Source: Fermentimonas sp.
GTDB lineage: Bacteria > Bacteroidota > Bacteroidia > Bacteroidales > Dysgonomonadaceae
Assembly (NCBI GenBank): GCA_015478775.1
Contig: JADMKP010000007.1
Coordinates: 682,001-746,000 of the forward strand
Length of the DNA: 64,000 nt
Reading direction: 5' to 3'
A program made the position numbers and the translations under genes. Within the stretch, counting starts at the first letter, position 1. Every line of letters starts with the position of its first letter. Of this stretch, positions 22,931 to 35,204 are shown piece by piece. The notes beneath the pieces were generated by a model that had not been told where the DNA came from, searched no databases, and saw only the letters and a list, made by a program, of their open reading frames with translations.

Positions 22931-23033
22931 GTTTTAAACATTTATCATTTAACAGTTCACTCAAAATATTTGTTTTATGCTACTTTTCTGCATCTATTAT
23001 GAATAATATTAAGCCTGTAGAACAAAAAATAAT

Positions 23034-23041
23034 TATATTTG
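23034..23041 (+). promoter_or_regulatory. -7 box candidate for the HMA gene
   Basis: TATATTTG is an exact TAnnTTTG, 87 bases before the ATG of the HMA gene. Confidence 0.35.
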
Positions 23042-23127
23042 TATCAATTAGATTTTTATTAGATGCTTTCTATTTATGTAGTAACATCATAGTATATGCT
23101 TAATCACTATAAAAATTAAAACAGCAA

Positions 23128-23337
23128 ATGAAAACAATGAAATTCAAAACAAATATAAACTGCTCAAACTGTGTTGCAAAAGTAACTCCTTTTCTTGACA
23201 AAAAGACAGGAAAGGGTTCATGGAATGTAGATACTGAAAGTGATGATAAAATACTTACTGTTGAGAATAGCGAACTAACAGCAGAAGATATTGTTAAAAC
23301 AATAAAACGCACAGGCTTCGAGGCTAATCAAATTTAA
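23128..23337 (+). CDS. Small HMA-domain metal-binding protein
   Basis: The 69-residue protein is a single heavy-metal-associated domain with the metal site INCSNCVAKV, where Cys-x-x-Cys binds Cu(I) or a similar ion, and the fold-typical ending TAEDIVKTIKRTGFEA. It could deliver copper to the ATPase encoded 1.4 kb upstream; they are separated by the divergent DUF3810 gene, so this link is inferred. The start may be three codons later (MKFKTN). Confidence 0.88.
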   Translation: MKTMKFKTNINCSNCVAKVTPFLDKKTGKGSWNVDTESDDKILTVENSELTAEDIVKTIKRTGFEANQI

Positions 23338-23357
23338 TAATAGGTTATAATTGGAGT

Positions 23358-23762
23358 CTAGTCTGCATTATTGTCTTTTAATACCAGCACCTTTTCATTT
23401 TGATTTATCAAACTAGTACATATTAAATATAGCAAGGTTGATAATGCTGATGAAAATAAAGACAATTCTACATAAAAGGGGGACTGCATACCAAATTTGA
23501 AAAACAATGTAAAGATGAATTGGCTAATAATGTAATATATAAGAAATATTATTGCATCGAACTGGCCCTTTGTATTTTTGGTTTTAATACAAAAAGGTGA
23601 TATTACAAAAATAAGCATAGGTGCTATGATTAGGAATGGAGCACAAAACAGCCAAATACGATTAAATTGTCTATGATTTTTATAGACTGAGATTAATCCC
23701 CATGTATAGAATACTATCATCAGAATTAAAAACCCCATAAGAGAGAATCCAATATCATTCAT
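23358..23762 (-). CDS. Small integral membrane protein, function unknown
   Basis: The 134-residue protein is not recognised. It has four likely membrane segments (about 5-25, 37-57, 69-90, 98-117) and a short charged tail (NQNEKVLVLKDNNAD). It converges on the HMA gene, 20 bases apart. Nothing points to a function. Confidence 0.6.
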   Translation of the reverse strand: MNDIGFSLMGFLILMIVFYTWGLISVYKNHRQFNRIWLFCAPFLIIAPMLIFVISPFCIKTKNTKGQFDAIIFLIYYIISQFIFTLFFKFGMQSPFYVELSLFSSALSTLLYLICTSLINQNEKVLVLKDNNAD

Positions 23763-23853
23763 ATTTTCCTAAATTGTCTTTAACATTTGTCTATAGCTAA
23801 TGCCGCATTCATAATGGCGCATGGAACTGATAATAATGTGCATACAATGTCAT

Positions 23854-24077
23854 TTAACATATCATCTTCAATTCTTTATAAAAATTTACCCATGTGTTCT
23901 CATAATTTAAAATTGATGTATTTATTTGGGAAATAAATGAATCTTTTGAAATTACTGCCTCATCTTCTACATTACTTGTCTTAATATCATAAATATTGAT
24001 GCGGTTTGCATCTTCACACGAACAATAAATGAGGCTTGAAATCAAGAATAAATAAATAAACTATAATTCTTACTCAT
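23854..24077 (-). pseudogene. Small lipoprotein gene, one TTTA unit out of frame (phase-variable or broken)
   Basis: An open frame from 24045 (TTG) to 23854 encodes ISSLIYCSCEDANRINIYDI and about 40 further residues, with a lipobox-like LIYC but no hydrophobic signal. An ATG at 24077 opens a second frame, MSKNYSLFIYS, that stops after 11 codons. The two frames meet at TTTATTTATTTA (about 24048-24060 on the complement). With one more TTTA unit the reading would be MSKNYSLFIYLFLISSLIYC, a good lipoprotein signal joined to the body. The gene is therefore either switched by slippage of this repeat or recently frameshifted. Function unknown. Confidence 0.5.
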
Positions 24078-24307
24078 AATATTTGTTTGTTTTAAATTGA
24101 ATTTACAAATATATTTATAAAATTCATTATACTGTTATAAATAACAAGACAATACATCTTATGTGCTGAGAGAACGATCATTCGAAGAGTTGCTGAGTTT
24201 TTTTATTAAAACAATTACAAAAAGTTGTAATTACACCCATTTCTTATCATCTTTGTGGAATAGATGAAATATTTCTAGCTAATTTTTTTAAATTACAAAA
24301 TAGAATT

Positions 24308-25222
24308 ATGTCAAATAAATTACTTCCTTTAATAACTGTACTCTTTTTGTTAATTGCTAGTTGTGGTCCTAAAGAAGGTGAAGAGCATTATCTGAAATTT
24401 AAAAAACTAAAGAACACGCAAGAGTATTTCGCATACAAAGCGGATAGTACTATTTTAGTTAGCGGTCACAGAGGTAGTCGTGAAGCAGGCTTCCCCGAGA
24501 ATAGTATCGAGGGATTCCAACAAATATTAAGTCGGATTCCCGCATTTTTTGAAGTAGATCCCAGATTAACCAAGGACAGTGTTATTGTGCTTATGCATGA
24601 TGAAACTATTGACAGAACTACAAATGGTACCGGAAAGCTCTCTGATTTTACATATGATGATTTACAAGCCTATAGACTAAAGGATTCCGAGGGCAATATT
24701 ACAGCCGCAATGGTTCCAACACTTGAAGATGTACTTGAATGGAGTAATAAAAAAACTATAATTAATCTTGATAAGAAAGATGTACCTCTTCAAATGATTG
24801 TTGATTTGATCAAGAAAAAGAAAGCTCAAAAGTATGTTATGCTCACTGCGCATACGGGTGCTCAGGCTAGATTTTATCACGACAAACTGCCCGGAGTCAT
24901 GCTTTCGGTATTTGCAAGAAACGACGCCGAATATGAAGATATCGCAATATCCGGTGTACCATGGGATAATATGATAGCTTATGTAGGGCAGAGAATTGAT
25001 GATTCAAACAGGCATATTGTAGAGAAACTTCATGCTAAAGGGGTTAGATGCATGATTTCTTTTGCCCCATCCCACGATAGATTAGGAGCCACCGAGCAGC
25101 GTATGGCTGCATATATAAAAGAGGTTGAGAATTCTGTTTATAGACCAGACATTATTGAATCTGACTACCCTATTGATGTATGGAATATTTATGGAAAAAA
25201 GCAAATTGGAGTAGAAGAATAG
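24308..25222 (+). CDS. Glycerophosphodiester phosphodiesterase lipoprotein
   Basis: The 304-residue protein has a lipoprotein signal (LLIASC, Cys19). A GDPD TIM-barrel follows with the active-site signature SGHRGSREAGFPENSIEGF, FEVDPRLTKDSVIVLMHDETIDRTTNGTGKL and a late Lys/Glu region INLDKKD. It hydrolyses glycerophosphodiesters to glycerol-3-phosphate plus an alcohol, probably in the periplasm. It is a single gene; the trp leader begins 50 bases after its stop. Confidence 0.92.
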   Translation: MSNKLLPLITVLFLLIASCGPKEGEEHYLKFKKLKNTQEYFAYKADSTILVSGHRGSREAGFPENSIEGFQQILSRIPAFFEVDPRLTKDSVIVLMHDETIDRTTNGTGKLSDFTYDDLQAYRLKDSEGNITAAMVPTLEDVLEWSNKKTIINLDKKDVPLQMIVDLIKKKKAQKYVMLTAHTGAQARFYHDKLPGVMLSVFARNDAEYEDIAISGVPWDNMIAYVGQRIDDSNRHIVEKLHAKGVRCMISFAPSHDRLGATEQRMAAYIKEVENSVYRPDIIESDYPIDVWNIYGKKQIGVEE

Positions 25223-25252
25223 TTACAGAATCTGTTAAAAAGAACAAAACTG

Positions 25253-25283
25253 TTGCAAGTTGTTTATGTATAGCATATATTTG
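25253..25283 (+). promoter_or_regulatory. trp operon promoter
   Basis: TTG at 25253-25255 (three of four bases of the -33 box), 20 bases, then TATATTTG at 25276-25283, an exact -7 box. Transcription would start near 25290, about 12 bases before the leader peptide ATG. Confidence 0.75.
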
Positions 25284-25301
25284 CATCACATTAAACGAAA
25301 A

Positions 25302-25361
25302 ATGATGAATATACTTACAAACGGATATTGGTGGCGCTACTTACAACACATAAAGTCGTAA
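25302..25361 (+). CDS. trpL: trp operon leader peptide
   Basis: The 19-codon frame reads MMNILTNGYWWRYLQHIKS and ends in TAA. Two adjacent Trp codons (25329-25334) in a short frame just after a promoter, 50 bases before an intrinsic terminator and upstream of seven trp genes, are the hallmark of a ribosome-stalling leader. A ribosome waiting at the Trp codons would change leader RNA folding and let transcription read into trpB. The start may be either of the two consecutive ATGs. The peptide was too short for standard gene finding. Confidence 0.85.
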   Translation: MMNILTNGYWWRYLQHIKS

Positions 25362-25411
25362 GGAAGAACAGTCGTATCTGAAAATAAGTATAAAAAACTA
25401 TAAAATTAAAG

Positions 25412-25441
25412 AGCCTGTCGCAATCCTGCGACGGGCTTTTT
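25412..25441 (+). terminator. trp attenuator terminator
   Basis: AGCCTGTCGCA (25412-25422), loop ATCC, TGCGACGGGCT (25427-25437): an 11-pair stem with one G-U pair, followed by five T. It ends about 175 bases before trpB. GTCGTA occurs twice in the leader (25355-25360 and 25371-25376) and can pair with TGCGAC of the 3' arm, offering a possible competing fold. The stem 5' arm has no obvious upstream partner. Confidence 0.85.
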
Positions 25442-25617
25442 AAGTTTAAAGGGGTTTATAAAGTCAGGAGTAATATACAATTAGGTTAGTGCAATATTAA
25501 ATAAGATTACAAGAGTATTATCAAAGAACAAAATGACAATAGCCTGACAAATGGAGCCATACGGTGAGTTATTGAAGATCTATAATATTAAAAGAGAATA
25601 ATATAACAAATATAAAT

Positions 25618-26811
25618 ATGCAAAAATATACAGTAGATGAAAGAGGATATTATGGTGATTTTGGTGGAGCTTACATTCCTGAAATACTTCATAAATGCGT
25701 AACAGAACTAGAAACGGCATATCTGAGAATAATAGAAAGCGAAACTTTTCAAAACGATTTTAATCAGCTGCTACACGATTATGTGGGCAGACCATCTCCA
25801 TTATATCATTCAAAGCAGTTATCAGAACGATACGGTGCAAAGATCTACCTGAAGCGCGAGGATCTTAACCATACCGGTGCTCATAAAATAAATAACACAA
25901 TAGGTCAGATATTGATAGCTAGAGAAATGGGTAAAACGCGTATTATAGCAGAAACAGGAGCAGGTCAGCACGGAGTAGCCACCGCCACAGTTTGTGCCCT
26001 AATGCAAATGCCCTGCACCGTGTATATGGGAGAAACGGATGTAAAACGTCAGCAGGTAAATGTAAAGAAAATGGAGATGCTTGGGGCAACTGTAGTTCCG
26101 GTTACATCAGGAAATATGACGCTAAAAGATGCTACCAACGATGCTATACGCGACTGGTGCAGCAACCCGGCAGATACTCATTATATAATAGGCTCAACTG
26201 TAGGTCCACACCCCTACCCCGACATGGTAGCTCGCCTTCAATCGGTTATCAGCAAGGAGATAAAAGTTCAACTTTTAGAAAAAGAGGGGCGAGACTATCC
26301 CGATTACCTAATAGCATGTGTTGGAGGGGGCAGTAATGCAGCGGGCACAATCTATGAATATCTAGACAATGAAAATGTTAAGATTGTATTGGCAGAAGCA
26401 GGCGGCAAAGGCGTAGATAGCGGAGAGTCTGCAGCAACAATTCATTTAGGCAGATCGGGAATATTGCATGGTAGTAAAACATTGCTTATGCAAGACGAAG
26501 ATGGGCAGATAACTGAACCTTACTCAATATCGGCAGGGTTAGACTATCCGGGCATTGGCCCCATTCATGCAAATCTTGCCATAACAAAGCGTGCAAGAGT
26601 ATATGCTGTAAATGATGACGAAGCACTTCGTGCCGCATTTGAATTAACACGTAATGAAGGAATAATACCTGCTCTAGAATCTGCACATGCAATTGCAGTC
26701 TTAGAAAAAGTAACTTTCGATACTGATGACATTGTAGTTCTAACTCTTTCTGGCAGAGGCGATAAAGATTTAGAAACCTACTTCAAATACGAGAGTCACT
26801 TCGCAAAATAA
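25618..26811 (+). CDS. trpB: Tryptophan synthase beta chain
   Basis: The 397-residue PLP enzyme joins indole and serine to make tryptophan. It has the cofactor lysine Lys90 in NHTGAHKINN, the phosphate loop CVGGGSNAAG and EAGGKGVDSG, and the usual length. It is the first structural gene of the operon, an order common in Bacteroidetes but unlike trpE-first operons. About 175 bases separate it from the attenuator terminator. Confidence 0.98.
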   Translation: MQKYTVDERGYYGDFGGAYIPEILHKCVTELETAYLRIIESETFQNDFNQLLHDYVGRPSPLYHSKQLSERYGAKIYLKREDLNHTGAHKINNTIGQILIAREMGKTRIIAETGAGQHGVATATVCALMQMPCTVYMGETDVKRQQVNVKKMEMLGATVVPVTSGNMTLKDATNDAIRDWCSNPADTHYIIGSTVGPHPYPDMVARLQSVISKEIKVQLLEKEGRDYPDYLIACVGGGSNAAGTIYEYLDNENVKIVLAEAGGKGVDSGESAATIHLGRSGILHGSKTLLMQDEDGQITEPYSISAGLDYPGIGPIHANLAITKRARVYAVNDDEALRAAFELTRNEGIIPALESAHAIAVLEKVTFDTDDIVVLTLSGRGDKDLETYFKYESHFAK

Positions 26812-26853
26812 TAGAACTAATATACTAGTAATAACAGTAAAGCAGTAGATTGT

Positions 26854-28260
26854 ATGCAGTATAAATATCAAACAAACAGCCGCAAAATAATGGGTGATCT
26901 CCATACTCCGGTGAGCATTTACCTAAAAGTAAGAGATACATTTCCACAGTCGGCACTACTCGAGAGTTCCGATTTTCATGCAAAAGAAAATAGCATCTCA
27001 TACCTGGCTCTCAAGCCAATAGCAAGGATTGAAGTTAACAGAGGAATAAGCAAAATGGTGTTCCCCGATGATAAAGAAGAGAGCAGAGAACTTTCTGATG
27101 AGTTCACAATCTCTGACTCATTAAACAATTTTATCGAGAGATTTGAGGTTGAAGATAGTGACATTGACAACATTGGTCTGTTTGGTTACACAACCTTCAA
27201 CTGTGTAAAATATACCGAGAACATTAATATTAAAGAGAGTAAGGAAGATAAAAACGATGCTCCCGATATGCTCTATATTTTGTATAAGTATATATTGGTA
27301 TTCAATCATTTTTCAGACGAAATTACCCTTATCGAGTTACAGGAGAAGGATGAACTGAGCAATTTAAATAAAATTGAATCGCTAATCAATCAACGAAACT
27401 TTGCAAATTATAATTTCTTTACCGAAGGAGATGAGTACAGTACTATTTCCAACGAAGAGTATAAGCAGTATGTTAGAACTGGTGTGGAGCACTGTATGAA
27501 AGGCGATATATTTCAGATTGTTCTCTCACGCAGATTTGTACAGCCATTTTCGGGTGACGATTTTAAGGTTTATAGAGCATTACGTAGTATTAATCCTTCG
27601 CCATATCTTTTTTATTTCGACTTTGGGGGTTATCGTATTTTTGGCTCATCTCCAGAAACTCATTGCAAAGTTGAGGGAAACAAAATAAGCATCGATCCAA
27701 TAGCAGGAACTACAAAGCGAACAGGTAATTATCAGGAAGATATGGAGGGTGTAGAATTTTTACTGAACGACCCCAAAGAGAATGCAGAGCATGTTATGTT
27801 GGTTGATTTGGCACGAAACGATCTAAGCAGAAATGCTCATGATGTGGAGGTTGAGTTCTTTAAGGAGCCGCAGTTCTATTCACATGTTATTCACCTGGTA
27901 TCTCGTGTAAGTGGTGTCTTAAATTTCAGTGCAAATCCCATTAAAGCCTTCTTCGATACTTTCCCCGCAGGTACATTGTCGGGAGCACCAAAAGTGAGAG
28001 CTATGCAACTTATATCTGAGATAGAAACGCATAACCGAGGAGCTTATGGCGGTTGCATCGGCTTCATAGGGTTAAATGGAGATATCAATCAAGCCATAAC
28101 AATTCGCACCTTCGTGAGCCGTAATAACGAATTGTGGTATCAGGCCGGTGCTGGAGTTGTATCGCAAAGCAAGGATGAGTACGAACTAAACGAAGTTAAC
28201 AGTAAACTTGGTGCATTGCATATGGCCATTGAAAAAGCAACAAAACTCCATAATTCTTAA
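26854..28260 (+). CDS. trpE: Anthranilate synthase component I
   Basis: The 468-residue chorismate-utilising enzyme has the core motifs GDIFQIVLSRRF, FGSSPETHCKVEG, DPIAGTTKRTG and FPAGTLSGAPKVRAMQLI. It turns chorismate and ammonia (from TrpG) into anthranilate, the first step of the pathway. A regulatory N-terminal part that would bind tryptophan is present. It is 42 bases after trpB and 11 bases before trpG. Confidence 0.97.
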   Translation: MQYKYQTNSRKIMGDLHTPVSIYLKVRDTFPQSALLESSDFHAKENSISYLALKPIARIEVNRGISKMVFPDDKEESRELSDEFTISDSLNNFIERFEVEDSDIDNIGLFGYTTFNCVKYTENINIKESKEDKNDAPDMLYILYKYILVFNHFSDEITLIELQEKDELSNLNKIESLINQRNFANYNFFTEGDEYSTISNEEYKQYVRTGVEHCMKGDIFQIVLSRRFVQPFSGDDFKVYRALRSINPSPYLFYFDFGGYRIFGSSPETHCKVEGNKISIDPIAGTTKRTGNYQEDMEGVEFLLNDPKENAEHVMLVDLARNDLSRNAHDVEVEFFKEPQFYSHVIHLVSRVSGVLNFSANPIKAFFDTFPAGTLSGAPKVRAMQLISEIETHNRGAYGGCIGFIGLNGDINQAITIRTFVSRNNELWYQAGAGVVSQSKDEYELNEVNSKLGALHMAIEKATKLHNS

Positions 28261-28271
28261 TGTAGGAAAAT

Positions 28272-28853
28272 ATGAAATCTATAAAAATTCTCTTGTTAGA
28301 TAACTACGACTCCTTCACATATAACCTGGTTCATGTTATAAAATCGTTGGGTTATGAAAACGTTGATGTGTATCGCAACGATAAAATTGAGCTCTCTCAG
28401 ATAGATCAGTATGATAAAATAATACTTTCACCGGGGCCGGGTCTGCCTTCTGAAGCCGGCATAATGATGGAGCTGATAAAAGAGTATGCAGGTAAGAAAA
28501 GCATATTGGGAGTTTGTCTTGGTCACCAAGCCATAGCAGAGGTCTTTGGCGCCAAGCTCGAAAATATCCCTACCGTCTTTCATGGCGTACAAACAGCAAT
28601 TAAAATTGTGATTGAGGATTATATTTTTGCAGGATTACCAAAAGAGATACCTGCAGGACGATATCACTCTTGGATTGTTTCCAAGAATGATTTCCCTAAT
28701 GAACTTGAAGTCACAGCTGTGGATAGGGCGGGCGACATTATGGCATTGAAACATAAAAAGCTCGATCTGCATGGAGTGCAATTCCACCCCGAGTCTATCC
28801 TCACTCCCGATGGAGCACGGATAATTCAGAATTTCTTACAATCAAAAAAGTAG
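28272..28853 (+). CDS. trpG: Anthranilate synthase component II (glutamine amidotransferase)
   Basis: The 193-residue class I amidotransferase has the start LLLDNYDSFTYNLVH, the nucleophile Cys in GVCLGHQAIAEVFG and the His/Glu pair in GVQFHPESILT. It supplies ammonia to TrpE, encoded just upstream. It is not fused to trpE or trpD. trpD starts 4 bases after its stop. Confidence 0.97.
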   Translation: MKSIKILLLDNYDSFTYNLVHVIKSLGYENVDVYRNDKIELSQIDQYDKIILSPGPGLPSEAGIMMELIKEYAGKKSILGVCLGHQAIAEVFGAKLENIPTVFHGVQTAIKIVIEDYIFAGLPKEIPAGRYHSWIVSKNDFPNELEVTAVDRAGDIMALKHKKLDLHGVQFHPESILTPDGARIIQNFLQSKK

Positions 28854-28857
28854 CAGA

Positions 28858-29853
28858 ATGAAGGATATTCTTTATAAACTTTTCGATTATCAGTACCTAT
28901 CCCGCGATGAAGCAAAGCAAGTGCTTTTTGAAATAGTTAAAGGAGATGTGCCCGAAACTCAGATTGCATCTTTGATAACCTCGTTTTTAATGCGAAGTAT
29001 ATCCGTAGATGAAATACTTGGTTTTAGAGATGCACTGCTTGAGATGCGGGTGACTGTCGACCTTTCAGATTATTCACCTTTGGATATAGTTGGCACAGGA
29101 GGAGATGGCAAAAACACTTTTAATATATCTACAACATCTTGCTTTGTGGTAGCTGGTGCAGGATACAACGTAGTAAAACATGGCAATTACGGCGCCACAT
29201 CAATTAGTGGAGCAAGCAATGTAATTGAGCAGCAAGGAGTGAAGTTCAGCACCGATAACGATCGTTTTAGAAAGAGTCTCGATAAATGCCACATAGCCTA
29301 TCTTCACGCACCATTGTTTAGTCCAGCACTTAAAGCAGTTGCCCCTGTTCGTAAAAGCTTGGGTGTCCGCAACTTCTTTAACGTACTTGGACCACTAGTC
29401 AATCCCGTGCAGCCTAAATATCAAATGCTGGGAGTATATGATTTAGCAATGCTGAGGTTATACAGTTATATTTATCAAGAGGAAAACAGGAATTTCACAA
29501 TCGTGCATAGCATGGATGGATATGATGAAGTATCGCTAACCAGTCAGTTTAAAGTTACATCCAATAATGGCGAGCATTTATTTATGCCTGAAGACTTAGG
29601 CTTTAAAACACTCAGTCAGAACCAATTATATGGAGGAGACACTCCCGAAGAGGCTGCTTCCATATTCAGGAATGTTATTAATGCAAGTGCCACCGATGCC
29701 CAAATGAACGTGGTGATTGTTAATGCTGCATTGGGCATTCAAACCATAGAACAGCAAAAATCAATTGAAGAATGTATAGATATTGCCCGTGATGCTCTCT
29801 ATAGTAAAAAGGCATTAAGAGTATTGCAAACATTTGTTGAAATAAATAGTTGA
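28858..29853 (+). CDS. trpD: Anthranilate phosphoribosyltransferase
   Basis: The 331-residue protein has the PRPP-binding glycine loop DIVGTGGDGKNTFNIST, the VKHGNYGATSISGASNV motif and VRNFFNVLGPLVNP. It attaches phosphoribosyl to anthranilate. Length fits the family. It lies between trpG and trpC with almost no gaps. Confidence 0.97.
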   Translation: MKDILYKLFDYQYLSRDEAKQVLFEIVKGDVPETQIASLITSFLMRSISVDEILGFRDALLEMRVTVDLSDYSPLDIVGTGGDGKNTFNISTTSCFVVAGAGYNVVKHGNYGATSISGASNVIEQQGVKFSTDNDRFRKSLDKCHIAYLHAPLFSPALKAVAPVRKSLGVRNFFNVLGPLVNPVQPKYQMLGVYDLAMLRLYSYIYQEENRNFTIVHSMDGYDEVSLTSQFKVTSNNGEHLFMPEDLGFKTLSQNQLYGGDTPEEAASIFRNVINASATDAQMNVVIVNAALGIQTIEQQKSIEECIDIARDALYSKKALRVLQTFVEINS

Positions 29854-29858
29854 GAGTT

Positions 29859-30653
29859 ATGAAAGATGTTTTAAGCGAAATAGTTTTAAATAAAAAAGTT
29901 GAGGTAGCCAGGCAAAAAGAATTGGTGCCATTAATTGAATTAGAGAAACATCTACTTCAAAAAAAGGATACAATAAAATTCAGATCGCTGAAAGAAGCTT
30001 TATTAAACTCCACAACTGGCATTATTGCAGAGTTCAAACGCCGGTCACCAAGCAAAGGATGGTTGCATCAGAATGCTGCTGTTGACATAGTAACCAAGGC
30101 ATATGAAAATGCAGGAGCATCGGCACTATCAGTATTAACCGATGAGAGTTATTTTGGAGGCACTCTGGCTGATTTAAACAGTGCTGTGCAAAATGTGCAG
30201 ATTCCTGTAATGAGAAAAGAGTTTATTGTGGATGAGTATCAGATCTTTGAAGCAAAACTTATGGGTGCAAGTGCAATTCTACTTATTGCTGCAGCCATCA
30301 CACAAGAAGAATCTATGCGATTTACAAGGCTTGCAAACGAGTTGCAATTGGATGTACTATTAGAGTTGCACGATGAAAGTGAGACCGACTATATAACCCC
30401 TTTAAACAGCGTTATTGGAATTAATAACCGCAATCTGGGTAGTTTTGTTACAGATTTACAGAAATCGTTCCGTATGGCTCAATTACTCCCTATGGATTCT
30501 GTTTGGGTCTCAGAAAGTGGTTTATCAGATGCAAACGTTGTAAAAGAGCTTAGAGATGCAGGTTACAAAGGATTTTTAATAGGAGAATATTTTATGAAAT
30601 CAGGCAACCCCGAAGCCAGCCTAAAAGAATTTATTCAACAGATTGAGGGTTAG
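29859..30653 (+). CDS. trpC: Indole-3-glycerol-phosphate synthase
   Basis: The 264-residue TIM-barrel enzyme closes the indole ring. Typical segments are IIAEFKRRSPSKGW, ALSVLTDESYFGG, MRKEFIVDEYQI, GINNRNLGSF and VSESGL. I start at the ATG at 29859 (MKDVLSEIVLNKKVEVARQ); a TTG at 29850 overlapping the trpD stop is possible. It is not fused with trpF, which follows 62 bases later. Confidence 0.96.
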   Translation: MKDVLSEIVLNKKVEVARQKELVPLIELEKHLLQKKDTIKFRSLKEALLNSTTGIIAEFKRRSPSKGWLHQNAAVDIVTKAYENAGASALSVLTDESYFGGTLADLNSAVQNVQIPVMRKEFIVDEYQIFEAKLMGASAILLIAAAITQEESMRFTRLANELQLDVLLELHDESETDYITPLNSVIGINNRNLGSFVTDLQKSFRMAQLLPMDSVWVSESGLSDANVVKELRDAGYKGFLIGEYFMKSGNPEASLKEFIQQIEG

Positions 30654-30715
30654 CGATGTTTAATTGTAATACAAATTGCTTTGTAAATCAATAGTAGTAT
30701 TTAAACAACATAATC

Positions 30716-31327
30716 ATGATTATAAAAGTTTGTGGAATGTGTGATGTGGAGAATATCCGTCAGCTAGAACAGCTTGATATAGATTGGATGGGATTTATAT
30801 TCTATTCAGATTCACCACGCTATGTGGGACCAAAAGTGAGCTACCTCCCTAAAAAAGTGAAGAAGATTGGCGTTTTTGTTGATCAGATACCTCAAATAAT
30901 TAGTGAACGCGCCAAACAAAATCATCTCCAAATGATACAACTCCATGGTAGCGAGCCGCCATGGTACTGTATCAACTTGCAAGAGGAGGGCTATAAGATT
31001 ATTAAATCGTTTGGAATCGACACTGACGGATTCATACCCAATGCACAATTAAATGCATATGAAGGTAAGTGCGATTACTTTCTTTTTGACACAAAAACAA
31101 AACTGCACGGCGGTTCGGGCAAAAGATTTAATTGGGAAAAGCTTGCTAATTATGATGGCGACACCCCTTTTATATTAAGTGGTGGTATATCGCCCGAAGA
31201 TACTGAGGAGATAAAATCATTTAAGCATCCAAAATTTGCAGGAATAGATATCAACAGTCGTTTCGAAATTGAACCAGCATATAAGGATATCGAAATGGTT
31301 AAATCGTTTATAAAACAAATAAGATAA
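30716..31327 (+). CDS. trpF: Phosphoribosylanthranilate isomerase
   Basis: The 203-residue TIM-barrel protein begins IIKVCGMCDVENI, with the catalytic Cys in KVCGM, and has the phosphate site LSGGISPEDTEE and the end FAGIDINSRFE. It isomerises PRA to CdRP. The start is 62 bases after trpC, the widest gap inside the operon after trpB. Confidence 0.97.
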   Translation: MIIKVCGMCDVENIRQLEQLDIDWMGFIFYSDSPRYVGPKVSYLPKKVKKIGVFVDQIPQIISERAKQNHLQMIQLHGSEPPWYCINLQEEGYKIIKSFGIDTDGFIPNAQLNAYEGKCDYFLFDTKTKLHGGSGKRFNWEKLANYDGDTPFILSGGISPEDTEEIKSFKHPKFAGIDINSRFEIEPAYKDIEMVKSFIKQIR

Positions 31328-31342
31328 AGTGCAATTATAATT

Positions 31343-32113
31343 ATGAACAGAATAGATAAGTTATTTAAAGAGAAGAAAGAGAATATACTATCGGTCTACT
31401 TTACCGCAGGATACCCAAAATCTGATGATACCATAGAAGTGATAAAAACACTTGAGAAAAATGGAGTGGATCTATTAGAGATTGGAGTGCCATTTAGCGA
31501 CCCGATGGCCGATGGCCCTGTTATACAAGCATCTGGAAATGAGGCACTACGCAATGGCATGAGTTTAAAAAAACTCTTTGCTCAATTAAAAAATGTGCGT
31601 GCAGAAGCTTCTATCCCTTTGGTGTTAATGGGTTATCTTAATCCAATTATGCAATATGGATTCGAAAACTATTGCAAAAGTGCTGCAGAGTGTGGTGTTG
31701 ATGGATTAATAATACCCGATCTGCCATTCTCAGAATATATGGAGACTTATAAATCAATTGCAGAAAAACATGGCTTGCATATGATAATGCTAGTAACTCC
31801 CGAAACATCAGAAGAAAGAATAAGATTGATCGACCAAAACACTTCCGGCTTTATCTATATGGTATCATCGGCATCGGTAACAGGTGCAAGAAATTCGTTC
31901 AGCGAGACAAACCTCAACTACTTCAGGCGCGTTAATAAAATGAATTTGCAAAACCCCCGTTTAATTGGTTTTGGTATATCTAATAAAGAAACATTTGAAG
32001 CGGCATGCCGAGAATCTTCGGGTGCCATAATTGGTAGTAAGTTTATATCTCTTTTAAACAGTGAGAGCACAATTGAAGCTGCTGCAGAAAAGTTGATTGA
32101 GGCAATTAGTTAA
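31343..32113 (+). CDS. trpA: Tryptophan synthase alpha chain
   Basis: The 256-residue TIM-barrel enzyme splits indole-3-glycerol phosphate. It has the catalytic Glu and Asp region LLEIGVPFSDPMADGPVIQ, GLIIPDLPFSE, and SSASVTGARNSF. It passes indole to TrpB, which is encoded at the other end of the operon. It is the last trp gene. No clear terminator is visible in the 68 bases before the next gene. Confidence 0.97.
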   Translation: MNRIDKLFKEKKENILSVYFTAGYPKSDDTIEVIKTLEKNGVDLLEIGVPFSDPMADGPVIQASGNEALRNGMSLKKLFAQLKNVRAEASIPLVLMGYLNPIMQYGFENYCKSAAECGVDGLIIPDLPFSEYMETYKSIAEKHGLHMIMLVTPETSEERIRLIDQNTSGFIYMVSSASVTGARNSFSETNLNYFRRVNKMNLQNPRLIGFGISNKETFEAACRESSGAIIGSKFISLLNSESTIEAAAEKLIEAIS

Positions 32114-32136
32114 TACATTGTATTGAAAAATTAGAG

Positions 32137-32144
32137 TACATTTG
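32137..32144 (+). promoter_or_regulatory. -7 box upstream of the DMT transporter gene
   Basis: TACATTTG is an exact TAnnTTTG, 38 bases before the ATG, so the transporter has a promoter separate from the trp operon. Confidence 0.5.
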
Positions 32145-32181
32145 CAAATCTTTTGTACGCTAAAATTCAACAATATTATTA

Positions 32182-33066
32182 ATGCCTTTTCAATCACACA
32201 TTGGTGAAATTGCTTCACTTCTTACAGCTATTTGCTGGACTCTAAGTGCTATATACTTTGAGAAGGCAGGCAGAAGGATTGGGTCGTTATCGGTAAACAT
32301 TATTCGCATTTTCCTTGGGGTTATCTTCCTGGGAATAACAACCTATTTTACCAGAGGGATGTTTTTCCCTATGGATGCAACTCCCTATAACTGGTTATGG
32401 CTTGGCATTTCGGGTATAGTTGGCTTCTTTTTGGGAGATCTGTTTCTTTTTAAATCTTATACCATTATAGGCTCCAGAACGTCGCAACTGGTTATGAGTC
32501 TTGCACCTATGCTTACTGCCATTATTGGATGGTTTTTCCTGCACGAGATATTATCAGTTAAAAGCATAATTGGTATAATAGTGAGCGTAACAGGAATTAT
32601 GATTGCCGTAGCGGGCAAGAAATTAAAATTGAACGTTCCATTACGCGGATTTCTTTATGCCCTTGGCGGAGCCATGGGACAGGCAGTGGGACTCATACTC
32701 AGCAAGAAAGGTATGGGCGATTATGATGCTATTGCGGCTACTCAAATAAGGGCAATTGTTGGTTTTGCAGCTTTTGCTATTTTGGTTACAGTGATGAGAA
32801 GGTGGAAAAGGGTACTGATAACTACAACTGATAAAATGAGTATGAAGGCAACAACCATTGGGGCTATTTTTGGTCCATTTATTGGTGTTGCTCTTTCACT
32901 TTACGCAGTTCAGCATACCTCTACAGGTATTGCGTCTGCTCTTATGGCCTTAACTCCAGTATTCATTATTGTTCCTTCTGCAATTATGTTTAAAGAGAAA
33001 ATCACTGCTCCCCAAGTTATAGGAGCAGTGATTAGTATTATTGGAGCGACTATATTTTTCTTGTAG
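32182..33066 (+). CDS. EamA/DMT-superfamily membrane transporter
   Basis: The 294-residue protein has ten hydrophobic segments arranged as two EamA repeats (about 1-140 and 150-294), with the typical SAIYFEKAGRRIG, PMLTAIIGWFFLHE and TPVFIIVPSAIMFKEKIT ends. These carriers export amino acids or metabolites. Position after the trp operon is suggestive, but a tryptophan role is only a guess. Its stop is 2 bases from the stop of the convergent oxidoreductase. Confidence 0.9.
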   Translation: MPFQSHIGEIASLLTAICWTLSAIYFEKAGRRIGSLSVNIIRIFLGVIFLGITTYFTRGMFFPMDATPYNWLWLGISGIVGFFLGDLFLFKSYTIIGSRTSQLVMSLAPMLTAIIGWFFLHEILSVKSIIGIIVSVTGIMIAVAGKKLKLNVPLRGFLYALGGAMGQAVGLILSKKGMGDYDAIAATQIRAIVGFAAFAILVTVMRRWKRVLITTTDKMSMKATTIGAIFGPFIGVALSLYAVQHTSTGIASALMALTPVFIIVPSAIMFKEKITAPQVIGAVISIIGATIFFL

Positions 33067-33068
33067 GC

Positions 33069-34133
33069 CTACTCAACAGTTATTGTTCTCTTCTCTTTGC
33101 TACTCTGAAATGCGAGTTCAATAATTCTCATAACATCACGTGCTTCTTCTGCTTTAACTGCTAGTTCTCCTTTACCATTAATAGCATCACGAAGATTAAT
33201 AAAATAATCTTTATAATCACCAAGCTCACTCTCAATCTTGCCCGATATTTTTACTCCTTTGTATTCTGCATTTAATGTGCCCCAAATATCTTGAGGCTCT
33301 TTCCCCCAATCTTTTCCAAATGGCTTTGCTCCTCCATCTAAAGTGGCTTCCTGCACATCTAGACCATATTTTACAAAAGATCCATTTGTTCCATGTAGCA
33401 TATATGTGGGACCAGGAATGCGACAAATCATGCCGGATTTTAGTGTTGCAGTAAAGTTAGTGTAGTGTAAGCGAACATCAAAATGATCATCTACATTTGC
33501 CCAAGGGCGTTGTTTGTTAATCTCGGCGGTAACAGCTTTGGGCATTCCAAAAAACCATAATGCCTGATCAATTAAATGCGAACCCAAATCGTAGAATATA
33601 CCCGATCCCGGTAATGTCTGCTCGCGCCATGCTCCATTTGGCCTGGGGTCTGTACGATATCTGTCGAAATGAGTTTCATAATCAACTATTTCGCCGAGTA
33701 ATCCGCTATCCAAAAGCTTTTTTACTGTTTTGGTATCGCTCGTAAACCTACGGTTATGATATACCGATAGTACTTTATTCTGCTTCTTTGCCAGCTTAAT
33801 CAATTCATCGGCTTCTGCAACATTTATTGTGAATGGTTTTTCTACTACTGCATGTTTACCAGCCAGTAGCGCCTCCTTGGCCCATCTAAAATGATCGGTG
33901 TTTGGTGATGTAACTAATACCAGATCTATATTAGGATCGTTAATTATATTTTCTGCATCGGGTACGATTTCTGTTGATGCATAACGCTTATGTGCCAAAG
34001 CTATCCGTTCTGGGTTTGATGTGCTTATTTTTGAAAGTTCATAGCCTTCCACCACATCAATAAATGGTGCATGAAATACTCTTCCTGATAGTCCGTAACC
34101 TATTACTCCTGTGCGAATGTTGCTTGTTGACAT
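33069..34133 (-). CDS. Gfo/Idh/MocA-family NAD(P)-dependent oxidoreductase
   Basis: The 354-residue protein has a Rossmann start (RTGVIGYGLSGRVFHAPFI), the family motif AVVEKPFTIN with its catalytic Lys, and a C-terminal dimerisation domain with GSGIFYDLGSHLIDQALWFFG. Such enzymes oxidise sugars, inositols or related compounds. It resembles the YdgJ-type cytoplasmic members. It is alone on the minus strand with its own -7 box (TATCTTTG, 34182-34175). Confidence 0.93.
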   Translation of the reverse strand: MSTSNIRTGVIGYGLSGRVFHAPFIDVVEGYELSKISTSNPERIALAHKRYASTEIVPDAENIINDPNIDLVLVTSPNTDHFRWAKEALLAGKHAVVEKPFTINVAEADELIKLAKKQNKVLSVYHNRRFTSDTKTVKKLLDSGLLGEIVDYETHFDRYRTDPRPNGAWREQTLPGSGIFYDLGSHLIDQALWFFGMPKAVTAEINKQRPWANVDDHFDVRLHYTNFTATLKSGMICRIPGPTYMLHGTNGSFVKYGLDVQEATLDGGAKPFGKDWGKEPQDIWGTLNAEYKGVKISGKIESELGDYKDYFINLRDAINGKGELAVKAEEARDVMRIIELAFQSSKEKRTITVE

Positions 34134-34174
34134 AGCTTATAAGATTTAATATTCTAAATTATTTGTTTGTTGAT

Positions 34175-34182
34175 CAAAGATA
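34175..34182 (-). promoter_or_regulatory. -7 box of the oxidoreductase gene
   Basis: CAAAGATA on the plus strand reads TATCTTTG on the minus strand, about 42 bases before the ATG. Confidence 0.5.
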
Positions 34183-34259
34183 GTGATTTTTTTATTGATA
34201 CTATTTAACGATGAATGAAGTAAGTGATTCTCCATATTAGCTACCTATTAAGTTTTCAC

Positions 34260-34301
34260 CAACTACCTAGCAACTACCTACCAACTCCCTACCAACTCCT
34301 A
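34260..34301. repeat. 11-base tandem repeat
   Basis: Units CAACTACCTAG, CAACTACCTAC, CAACTCCCTAC and a partial CAACTCCTA follow each other in the oxidoreductase-DUF1080 gap. It is part of a 340-base stretch that holds no convincing gene. Confidence 0.75.
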
Positions 34302-34335
34302 ATTAACACTGTATATAAACAGAGTTTGTTAGGAC

Positions 34336-34490
34336 TTGGTCTGAACGATGTAGGGCGATGGTACCAAGTAAATATATCTGTGGGCAGTCATGAAATTAAT
34401 TCAAATAGCGCATTTTTCGTCCTACATCGACTTTACTTTTTTGTAAAAATTGGATTGAATAATGTAGACCAATTTCACATGGTAAATTAC
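34336..34490. repeat. Intergenic element with inverted and diverged direct repeats
   Basis: CGATGTAGGGCGA (34346-34358) is inverted at 34417-34429 (TCGTCCTACATCG), 12 of 13 paired. In addition TTGG-TGAA-ATGTAG and GTAAAT occur at the same spacing at 34336 and 34450 (114 apart). A 92-codon open frame crosses it, but its repeats and lack of family likeness suggest it is not a gene. Confidence 0.55.
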
Positions 34491-34536
34491 AGTAAACAGT
34501 GACATATTAATTTTTCTTTTCTTCAGATAAAAAGCT

Positions 34537-34544
34537 TATTTTTG
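34537..34544 (+). promoter_or_regulatory. -7 box of the DUF1080 lipoprotein gene
   Basis: TATTTTTG is an exact TAnnTTTG, 25 bases before the ATG. Confidence 0.55.
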
Positions 34545-34568
34545 TAAAGAAACATAAACAATAATCGT

Positions 34569-35204
34569 ATGAGAAAAACAAACTTATCGACTTTGATGCT
34601 GCTTTTGATTTTATTGGCTAGTAGCTGTAAACAACAATCTATGGAAATATTTAATGGTAAAGATCTTTCAAACTGGGAGTTTGTATTGCATAATGATGCT
34701 GCACCTGCGGATGAGGTGTACACTGTAAATGATGGAGTTATCACAATTGCGGGCGAACCTCTTGGGTATATGTATACTAAAGAGAAATACAGAAACTATA
34801 CTCTTGAGATGGAGTATAGATGGGCTGAAAATGCAAGTAATAGTGGTATATTTGTTCTGATTGAAGATCCTACCAATCCCTTCCCTAACGGAATTGAGTG
34901 CCAGTTGAAAGCTGGACAAGCGGGTGATTTAGTACTACTTGGGGGTTCTGATTTAAATGAATATACTCTTCCGGAGGGTGTAACGGAAAGACCTGCATTT
35001 CCGGTAATTGACAAGAAAGAGTCTTCTAGCGAAAATCCAACGGGAGAGTGGAATAGGGCTAAAATTGTAGTTCTTGATGGTGATATAACTGTGTATATTA
35101 ACGACCTACTGCAAAACAGAGCTAGCAGCAATGTAATGGAAGGACACATTGGTCTGCAAAGTGAAGGTGGAGCTATTCAATTTAAAAATATAGTTATCAG
35201 TTAG
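34569..35204 (+). CDS. DUF1080 (3-keto-disaccharide hydrolase-like) lipoprotein
   Basis: The 211-residue protein has a lipoprotein signal (LLASSC, Cys23 approx.). A single concanavalin-like beta-sandwich follows: MEIFNGKDLSNWEFV, GVITIAGEPLGYMYTKEKYRNYTLEMEYRW, NSGIFVLIED, NGIECQLK and late GHIGLQSEGGAIQFKNI. This is the DUF1080 family, now linked to 3-keto-glycoside hydrolysis in Bacteroidetes. The neighbouring Gfo/Idh/MocA oxidoreductase could make 3-keto sugars, but the two genes are divergent and this pairing is an inference. Confidence 0.9.
   Translation: MRKTNLSTLMLLLILLASSCKQQSMEIFNGKDLSNWEFVLHNDAAPADEVYTVNDGVITIAGEPLGYMYTKEKYRNYTLEMEYRWAENASNSGIFVLIEDPTNPFPNGIECQLKAGQAGDLVLLGGSDLNEYTLPEGVTERPAFPVIDKKESSSENPTGEWNRAKIVVLDGDITVYINDLLQNRASSNVMEGHIGLQSEGGAIQFKNIVIS

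Follow-up and report, generated by a model that had tools for sequence, protein, structure and literature searches.

A trp Operon Leader in Fermentimonas with a Predicted Antiterminator for the Loop and Descending Arm of Its Terminator

The trp operon of a Fermentimonas genome is preceded by a leader that we consider, with a probability of about three in four, to be a ribosome-mediated trp attenuator with an inverted antiterminator. In the textbook switch, the antiterminator prevails by sequestering the first-transcribed arm of the terminator. The sequence of the present leader indicates the reverse wiring, in which the terminator loop and the far arm, and not the near arm, are captured. This reading is built on the anatomy of the leader, its conservation, the covariation of leader with loop, and the pairing energies, all established by sequence and computation. 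The DNA analyzed, hereafter called the window, is the whole stretch of 64,000 nucleotides from contig JADMKP010000007.1 (assembly GCA_015478775.1, positions 682,001–746,000), and the coordinates given below refer to its forward strand, on which the attenuator and the trp operon are located.

The attenuator region is found between a gene resembling glycerophosphodiester phosphodiesterases (24308–25222) and trpB, which begins at 25618. The Bacteroidota-type promoter (25253–25283) is composed of TTG at 25253–25255 and the TAnnTTTG box TATATTTG at 25276–25283; TAnnTTTG is the consensus of Bacteroidota promoters. Among 210 related units, 155 have the same box no more than 60 nt ahead of the leader ATG, compared with the 9.7 predicted by mononucleotide shuffling. 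A sigma-70 scan of 23000–35000 gave results at the level of chance (46 found, 47.3 expected). The leader peptide ORF, MMNILTNGYWWRYLQHIKS, has 19 codons and extends from the ATG at 25302 to the TAA stop codon at 25359–25361, with the regulatory Trp codons at positions 10 and 11 (25329–25334). From 25310 to 25392 the RNA is predicted to fold into protector hairpins, and the structure of Rfam family RF01692 (Bacteroid-trp) spans the same region. The first protector stem pairs TATACTTA (25310–25317) with TAAGTATA (25385–25392), and the second pairs CTTAC (25340–25344) with GTAAG (25358–25362). The intrinsic terminator (25412–25441) is an 11-pair hairpin, AGCCTGTCGCA/ATCC/TGCGACGGGCT (25412–25437), with a T tract. 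The ascending arm is at 25412–25422, the loop at 25423–25426, the descending arm at 25427–25437, and the five Ts at 25437–25441. This hairpin was absent from the output of a generic terminator scan. The RNA from 25290 to 25445 folds with an energy of −46.3 kcal/mol, compared with −22.5 (sd 2.8) in 200 shuffles (z −8.4). As in an attenuator, a leader peptide with cognate codons is followed by an intrinsic terminator, and both precede the trp operon. The promoter, the 19-residue Trp-Trp leader, and the 11-pair terminator ahead of trpBEGDCFA had been proposed in a preliminary description of this DNA and were confirmed by the sequence, the z score of the fold, and NCBIfam.

The controlled operon, trpB-trpE-trpG-trpD-trpC-trpF-trpA (25618–32113), was identified from its ORFs and from NCBIfam. 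The products of trpB, trpG, trpD, trpC, and trpA score at or above the cutoff of the fitting model, and those of trpE and trpF give strong matches that fall below it. Downstream of trpA, at 32182–33066, is a gene for a transporter of the drug/metabolite type; it weakly matches amino acid exporters, among them an exporter of aromatic amino acids. In three genomes of the same genus (L017, L020, and L023), the trpB match contains one TGA, which may simply be the end of the gene. From the closest TrpB sequences in named records (Porphyromonadaceae bacterium, Proteiniphilum, Fermentimonas, Petrimonas, and others), the genome of the window belongs to the Dysgonomonadaceae and is of the Proteiniphilum/Fermentimonas kind. 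A family search for the Trp repressor gave no match in this genome and weak matches in 2 of the 41 genomes searched, one of them barely above the cutoff of the family. Attenuation may bear more of the control of trp in this organism because its genome has no such match.

The candidate antiterminator element, GTCGTAAGGA, lies over the leader stop codon at 25355–25364. Its predicted target at 25424–25432 consists of TCC from the loop and TGCGAC from the descending arm, as indicated by folding and by loop swaps in relatives. The energy for pairing the element (25354–25365) with the loop and descending arm is −12.1 kcal/mol, and pairing this good was found in 24 of 5000 dinucleotide shuffles. In the class of pairing to which the window belongs, GUCGU and AGGA are matched with UCCU and GCGAC around one bulged A. 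The best partner for the ascending arm anywhere in the window's leader reaches −2.1 kcal/mol, which was matched in 4743 of 5000 dinucleotide shuffles, and on these figures a classical antiterminator was rejected for the window. The E. coli arrangement, in which a II:III antiterminator competes with a III:IV terminator by taking segment III, was found in the E. coli control and not in the window. The element presumably resembles a stretch of 16S rRNA as well; this likeness was set aside because covariation with the loop accounts for the element.

The preliminary description had noted repeated GTCGTA elements in the leader and had suggested that they might capture the 3′ arm of the terminator. 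Two copies indeed exist, beginning at 25355 and 25371. For the first copy the suggestion is borne out by loop covariation and duplex energies, with the amendment that the terminator loop belongs to the target along with the 3′ arm; it does not hold for the second copy, which is mostly unconserved. The region of the second copy (25371–25376) would pair with the target at −8.1 kcal/mol, and it was rejected as a switch element because a further TCGTA or TCGTG within 25 nt was present in just 17 of the 137 units with a first copy. From its conservation and pairing energy, it is probably part of a protector stem.

Related trp units from the Bacteroidota were collected with a script that searched for short ORFs with adjacent Trp codons and a terminator downstream of the ORF. 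A leader-terminator match was obtained at 248 of 271 loci, which yielded 218 distinct units, or 211 after seven that were judged spurious had been removed. The window's own unit (L001, L196) is outside this set because the finder apparently chose another hairpin, and it was analyzed by hand. For each unit, the leader was paired in silico with the loop and descending arm and, separately, with the ascending arm and loop; the best duplexes of the two kinds were compared, and a margin of more than 1 kcal/mol was used to assign the preferred partner. The best partner was the loop and descending arm in 160 of the 211 units and the ascending arm in 38, with 13 ties; the corresponding numbers before cleaning (218 units) were 162, 43, and 13. 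All 22 units from the same genus prefer the loop and descending arm. The trp units that prefer the ascending arm include members of families f28 (e.g., L149 and L153), f187 (L189, L252, and L262), f178 (L249 and L251), f208 (L250 and L256), f211 (L255), and f32 (L156 and L264), and such units also occur within the order of the window (L206, L214, L228, L244, and L247). At an earlier stage, 23 of 160 loci had no finder match and were inspected by eye. The pairing with the loop and descending arm was seen at several of these, including L143, L157, and L123, and L145 and L154 had the appearance of ascending-arm units. No Trp-Trp leader was present in the portion inspected of L158, L159, L160, and L138, and the loci L086 and L104 are incomplete.

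The sequence NTCGTRA is found near the leader stop codon in 137 of the 211 units. TCG is the last codon in 113 of these, so that the second base of the stop codon (TAA or TGA) supplies R; in the other 24 the motif is present off its usual stop-codon register. The distance from the start of the last Trp codon to the start of the element is 23 nt in the window and in 76 of the 137 units, with a range of 14–24. The Trp codons, their spacing, the terminators, and the promoters of the relatives, together with the Rfam family, support the original proposal that this operon is probably controlled by ribosome-mediated attenuation. Three individual loci may be mentioned here. At L115, upstream of trpB, TTGTGG replaces the tandem Trp codons, and by eye the GTCGTAAG element and a CTTACGA target are kept. 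The terminator loop of L140 has grown to 11 nt and, by eye, complements the leader on either side of the insert. On the reverse strand of L243 (G042:C131:2800-3700), there are two tandem Trp-Trp-Trp leaders, each with its own terminator.

The match between loop and leader is independent evidence because the loop is unpaired in the terminator. After omission of 74 of the 211 units that lack the motif, 11 of the 137 that lack a CGR target, and 37 bulged units, 89 rows remained (34 distinct). The combinations of the key leader base and loop base in the 89 unbulged rows are A:U (29), G:C (55), G:U (5), and A:C (0), and the pair is formed in all 34 distinct rows (GC 19, AU 11, and GU 4). The 34-row set was chosen by NTCGTRA and the CGR target, which fixes columns 2–5, 7, 13, and 14; its covariation score is 0.269, compared with 0.196 when shuffled (0 of 500 as good) and at most 0.114 when slid. 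The percentage paired and the number of changed cells were also above all 500 shuffles. Two of the five measures fell within the shuffles, namely, the number of two-sided pair changes (293 of 500) and that of further pair types (158 of 500). Of the 34 rows, 13 have no pair at columns 1:16 and 10 have none at columns 8:9. Comparison of the relatives' leaders, which the preliminary description had put forward as a check, has thus yielded Trp codons and a terminator in 211 distinct units and a leader and loop that covary.

Loops were also exchanged among 27 divergent units with no preselection, 12 of which are ascending-arm and 12 descending-arm units. The pairing with the loop and descending arm was −7.86 with the own loop and −6.31 with swapped loops (0 of 2000 permutations as good). 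The swaps weakened the ascending-arm pairing too, again with 0 of 2000 permutations as good, which is what the coexistence of the two topologies would predict. In a test with disjoint nearest-neighbor pairs, which was not based on a tree, own loops were better than foreign loops for the loop and descending arm by 32 to 8 at 80% identity (p = 1.8 × 10−4) and by 40 to 7 at 85%, and the result for the ascending arm was not significant at either identity. At 72% identity, with the 27-unit set and its equal numbers of the two kinds, the count was 8 to 4 for the loop and descending arm (p = 0.39, not significant) and 12 to 1 for the ascending arm. A TrpB tree of 96 rows places 5 changes at the key leader base and 6 at the loop base, and there are 3 independent pairs on supported branches and 5 on all branches. 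The pairs on supported branches differ, on average, in the same way in 2.2 cases, in the opposite way in 0, and show no difference in 0.8; these independent switches are too few for significance. L015, within the tree set, has a leader A against a loop C.

An alternative is that the switch works through the position of the ribosome alone, or through a long protector hairpin that competes with the terminator, and that the complementarity of leader and loop is a by-product of the fixed stop codon and the conserved terminator stem. The GTCG of the leader is identical to the GTCG of the ascending arm, and therefore the terminator itself accounts for some of the pairing; the small number of independent switches on the TrpB tree is also in keeping with a by-product. 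We nonetheless regard this explanation as unlikely, since the loop bases, which are unpaired in the terminator, still track the leader, and the motif is kept in the 24 units where it is off the usual stop-codon register.

Slightly less likely still is a classical trp attenuator in which an overlooked segment of the leader pairs with the ascending arm. The 38 units that prefer the ascending arm belong to other families of the class and, in some cases, to the same order, and most of the neighboring his, phe, and ilv leaders take the ascending arm as well. Against this stand the poor energy and shuffle result for the best ascending-arm partner in the window and the uniform preference of the 22 units from the same genus.

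The his (HHHH), phe (FWFYFYF), and ilv leaders just mentioned precede genes for hisG, prephenate dehydratase, and ilvD at L275, L336, and 56 further loci. Homoserine dehydrogenase loci, whose sequences extend little past the start of the gene, were left out of the comparison. No leader was found at 3 of 30 his loci, 23 of 30 ilv loci, and 6 of 30 phe loci. The ascending arm was preferred by 21 of 27 his leaders near the window's genome (loop and descending arm 4, tie 2), all 7 ilv leaders, and all 24 phe leaders. The four contrary his units (L277, L285, L292, and L298) and the ilv leaders come from other families of the order, outside the genus. In the genome of the window itself, the his leader (L275) pairs with the ascending arm at −14.1 and with the alternative at −6.1, and the values for the phe leader (L336) are −12.8 and −3.8. 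For the E. coli trpL control, the energies were −10.9 kcal/mol for the ascending arm and −4.9 kcal/mol for the loop and descending arm. Most of these control leaders come out as classical, and therefore the duplex test recovers the textbook design where it is present.

The states of the inverted switch were calculated by masked folding, with energies for isolated RNA from an equilibrium model without pseudoknots. The mask for a stalled ribosome was set at codon 11 and extended through 13 nt past the start of the codon, which covers CTTAC. When 6 nt of the descending arm had emerged, the stalled state of the window gave an antiterminator probability of 0.90 and a terminator probability of 0.00. 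The antiterminator probability was 0.50–0.90 with 4–8 nt out and 0.03 with 9 nt out, where the terminator prevails. A stall at codon 10 gave much the same probabilities, and with the ribosome at the stop codon or absent the antiterminator probability was 0.00 throughout. Folding with and without a ribosome at codons 10–11 had been suggested beforehand as a check; in the outcome, the stalled state frees the element, and otherwise the terminator forms. For the 211 units with 6 nt out, the probability of the terminator was 0.08 when stalled, 0.94 at the stop codon, and 0.86 without a ribosome, and it was 0.27 in the stalled state when each unit was given two foreign loops. For the 160 descending-arm units in the stalled state, the probability was 0.04 at 6 nt, 0.29 at 8 nt, and 0.94 at 12 nt. 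In computation, then, an alternative structure that is freed by a stall and blocked by a ribosome at the stop codon is obtained as long as no more than 8 nt of the descending arm is out. The terminator wins at equilibrium once 9 nt is out, and therefore the switch needs kinetics or the footprint of the polymerase. Eight transcribed nucleotides are taken as unavailable for folding in the modeling described in PMC1183508. With this figure, the polymerase would be at about 25442–25443, just beyond the T tract, when the balance tips.

From these results we infer ribosome stalling, a race at the RNA exit channel, and a response to tryptophan, as follows. When charged tRNA-Trp is low, a ribosome would stall at codons 10–11 and mask CTTAC, and the protector hairpins would open. 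The freed GTCGTAAGGA would capture TCC and TGCGAC through nine pairs with one bulged A as the polymerase extrudes the loop and the early part of the descending arm. Transcription would continue into trpB because the ascending arm would be left with no partner while the polymerase crosses the T tract. With a ribosome at the stop codon, the terminator would form. In the absence of translation, or after the ribosome has been released, the element would be hidden by the protector hairpins and the terminator would again form.

Attenuator-derived sRNAs exist, which is a point in favor of a source that acts in trans. Sensing by a riboswitch, a T-box, or a trans-acting RNA or peptide instead of the ribosome is nevertheless very improbable here, even though a trp leader peptide is reported to act in trans in Sinorhizobium meliloti (PMC7298713), given that no Rfam family, T-box and riboswitches included, reached its gathering score in the 64-kb window, that no T-box was among the permissive matches to 25150–25650, and that the Trp codons lie 14–24 nt before the element in 137 units. 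An additional role of the leader in trans is conceivable alongside the inverted switch.

The permissive Rfam search returned RF01692 with 45.0 bits (E = 3.5 × 10−4) over the whole model (positions 1–131), and the curated gathering score of 49 bits was not reached by the window. Like the members of this family, the window's leader is upstream of trp genes in the Bacteroidota and contains Trp codons. Of 14 loci scanned, four pass RF01692, namely, L020 (58.8), L023 (53.6), L005 (52.8), and the more distant L030 (50.2); nine are below the cutoff, including the window's copy (L001), and L022 is not listed. The window's copy looks like an orthologue of the RF01692 members that is just below the cutoff. 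Matches to the family were obtained in 47 of 395 genomes of the phylum (E = 0.01), 78 of 393 of the order (E = 0.05), and 51 of 395 of the class (E = 0.05).

A trp attenuator in the Bacteroidetes is thus not new, having been known as RF01692 since 2010. The Bacteroid-trp motif appears once in the main text of Weinberg et al. 2010 (PMC2864571), tabulated as a likely cis-regulator, and the words attenuation, leader peptide, and antiterminator are absent from that main text. In later papers, the Bacteroid-trp element is called similar to the E. coli leader (PMC6414381), leader-peptide attenuation is mentioned in general terms for Flavobacterium psychrophilum (PMC9723704), and short ORFs reminiscent of leader-peptide attenuation are mentioned, again in general terms, for Bacteroides thetaiotaomicron (PMC7366714). 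The accessible parts of PMC2864571, PMC6414381, PMC4833913, and PMC9723704 (supplements apart), and of PMC7366714, PMC8305728, PMC1183508, and PMC2965389, describe no antiterminator for the Bacteroid-trp leader and no antiterminator that takes a descending arm. As far as the accessible parts of these eight papers show, the antiterminator for the loop and descending arm seems to be new.

We think it fairly probable that these leaders represent a second topological class of attenuator, defined by an element at the stop codon, a loop toehold that leads into the descending arm, a race at the exit channel, and no release-dependent leak, and that the topology has changed at least once. If so, this change took place among the trp leaders of the Bacteroidota, with the Trp leader and the terminator preserved. 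In E. coli, basal read-through of trp arises from release of the ribosome once segment III is out, according to PMC1183508. The inverted design is predicted to be free of release-dependent basal read-through: early release would merely allow the protector to re-form, because the target is made only as the terminator itself is made. A conserved trp family seemingly reverses the rule of the first-made arm, in a genus whose his and phe leaders obey it. Through this natural comparison, co-transcriptional folding, the footprint of the polymerase, and basal leak become testable, and the mechanism proposed for trp regulation is a concrete one for a major gut and environmental phylum.

The leader of the window shares with RF01692 the site before the trp genes, the leader peptide, and the long hairpin. 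The RF01692 model differs in that it has no terminator loop, descending arm, or antiterminator; the loop and descending arm are missing because the final positions of the model fall on the terminator's ascending arm. The his and phe leaders from this genus and the ilv leaders from the order likewise have a terminator preceded by a peptide in which the product amino acid is abundant, but in these it is mostly the ascending arm that is captured. E. coli trpL has the same Trp-Trp leader, protector, antiterminator, terminator, and three ribosome states, whereas its leader takes the ascending arm and the leader of the window is predicted to take the loop and the descending arm.
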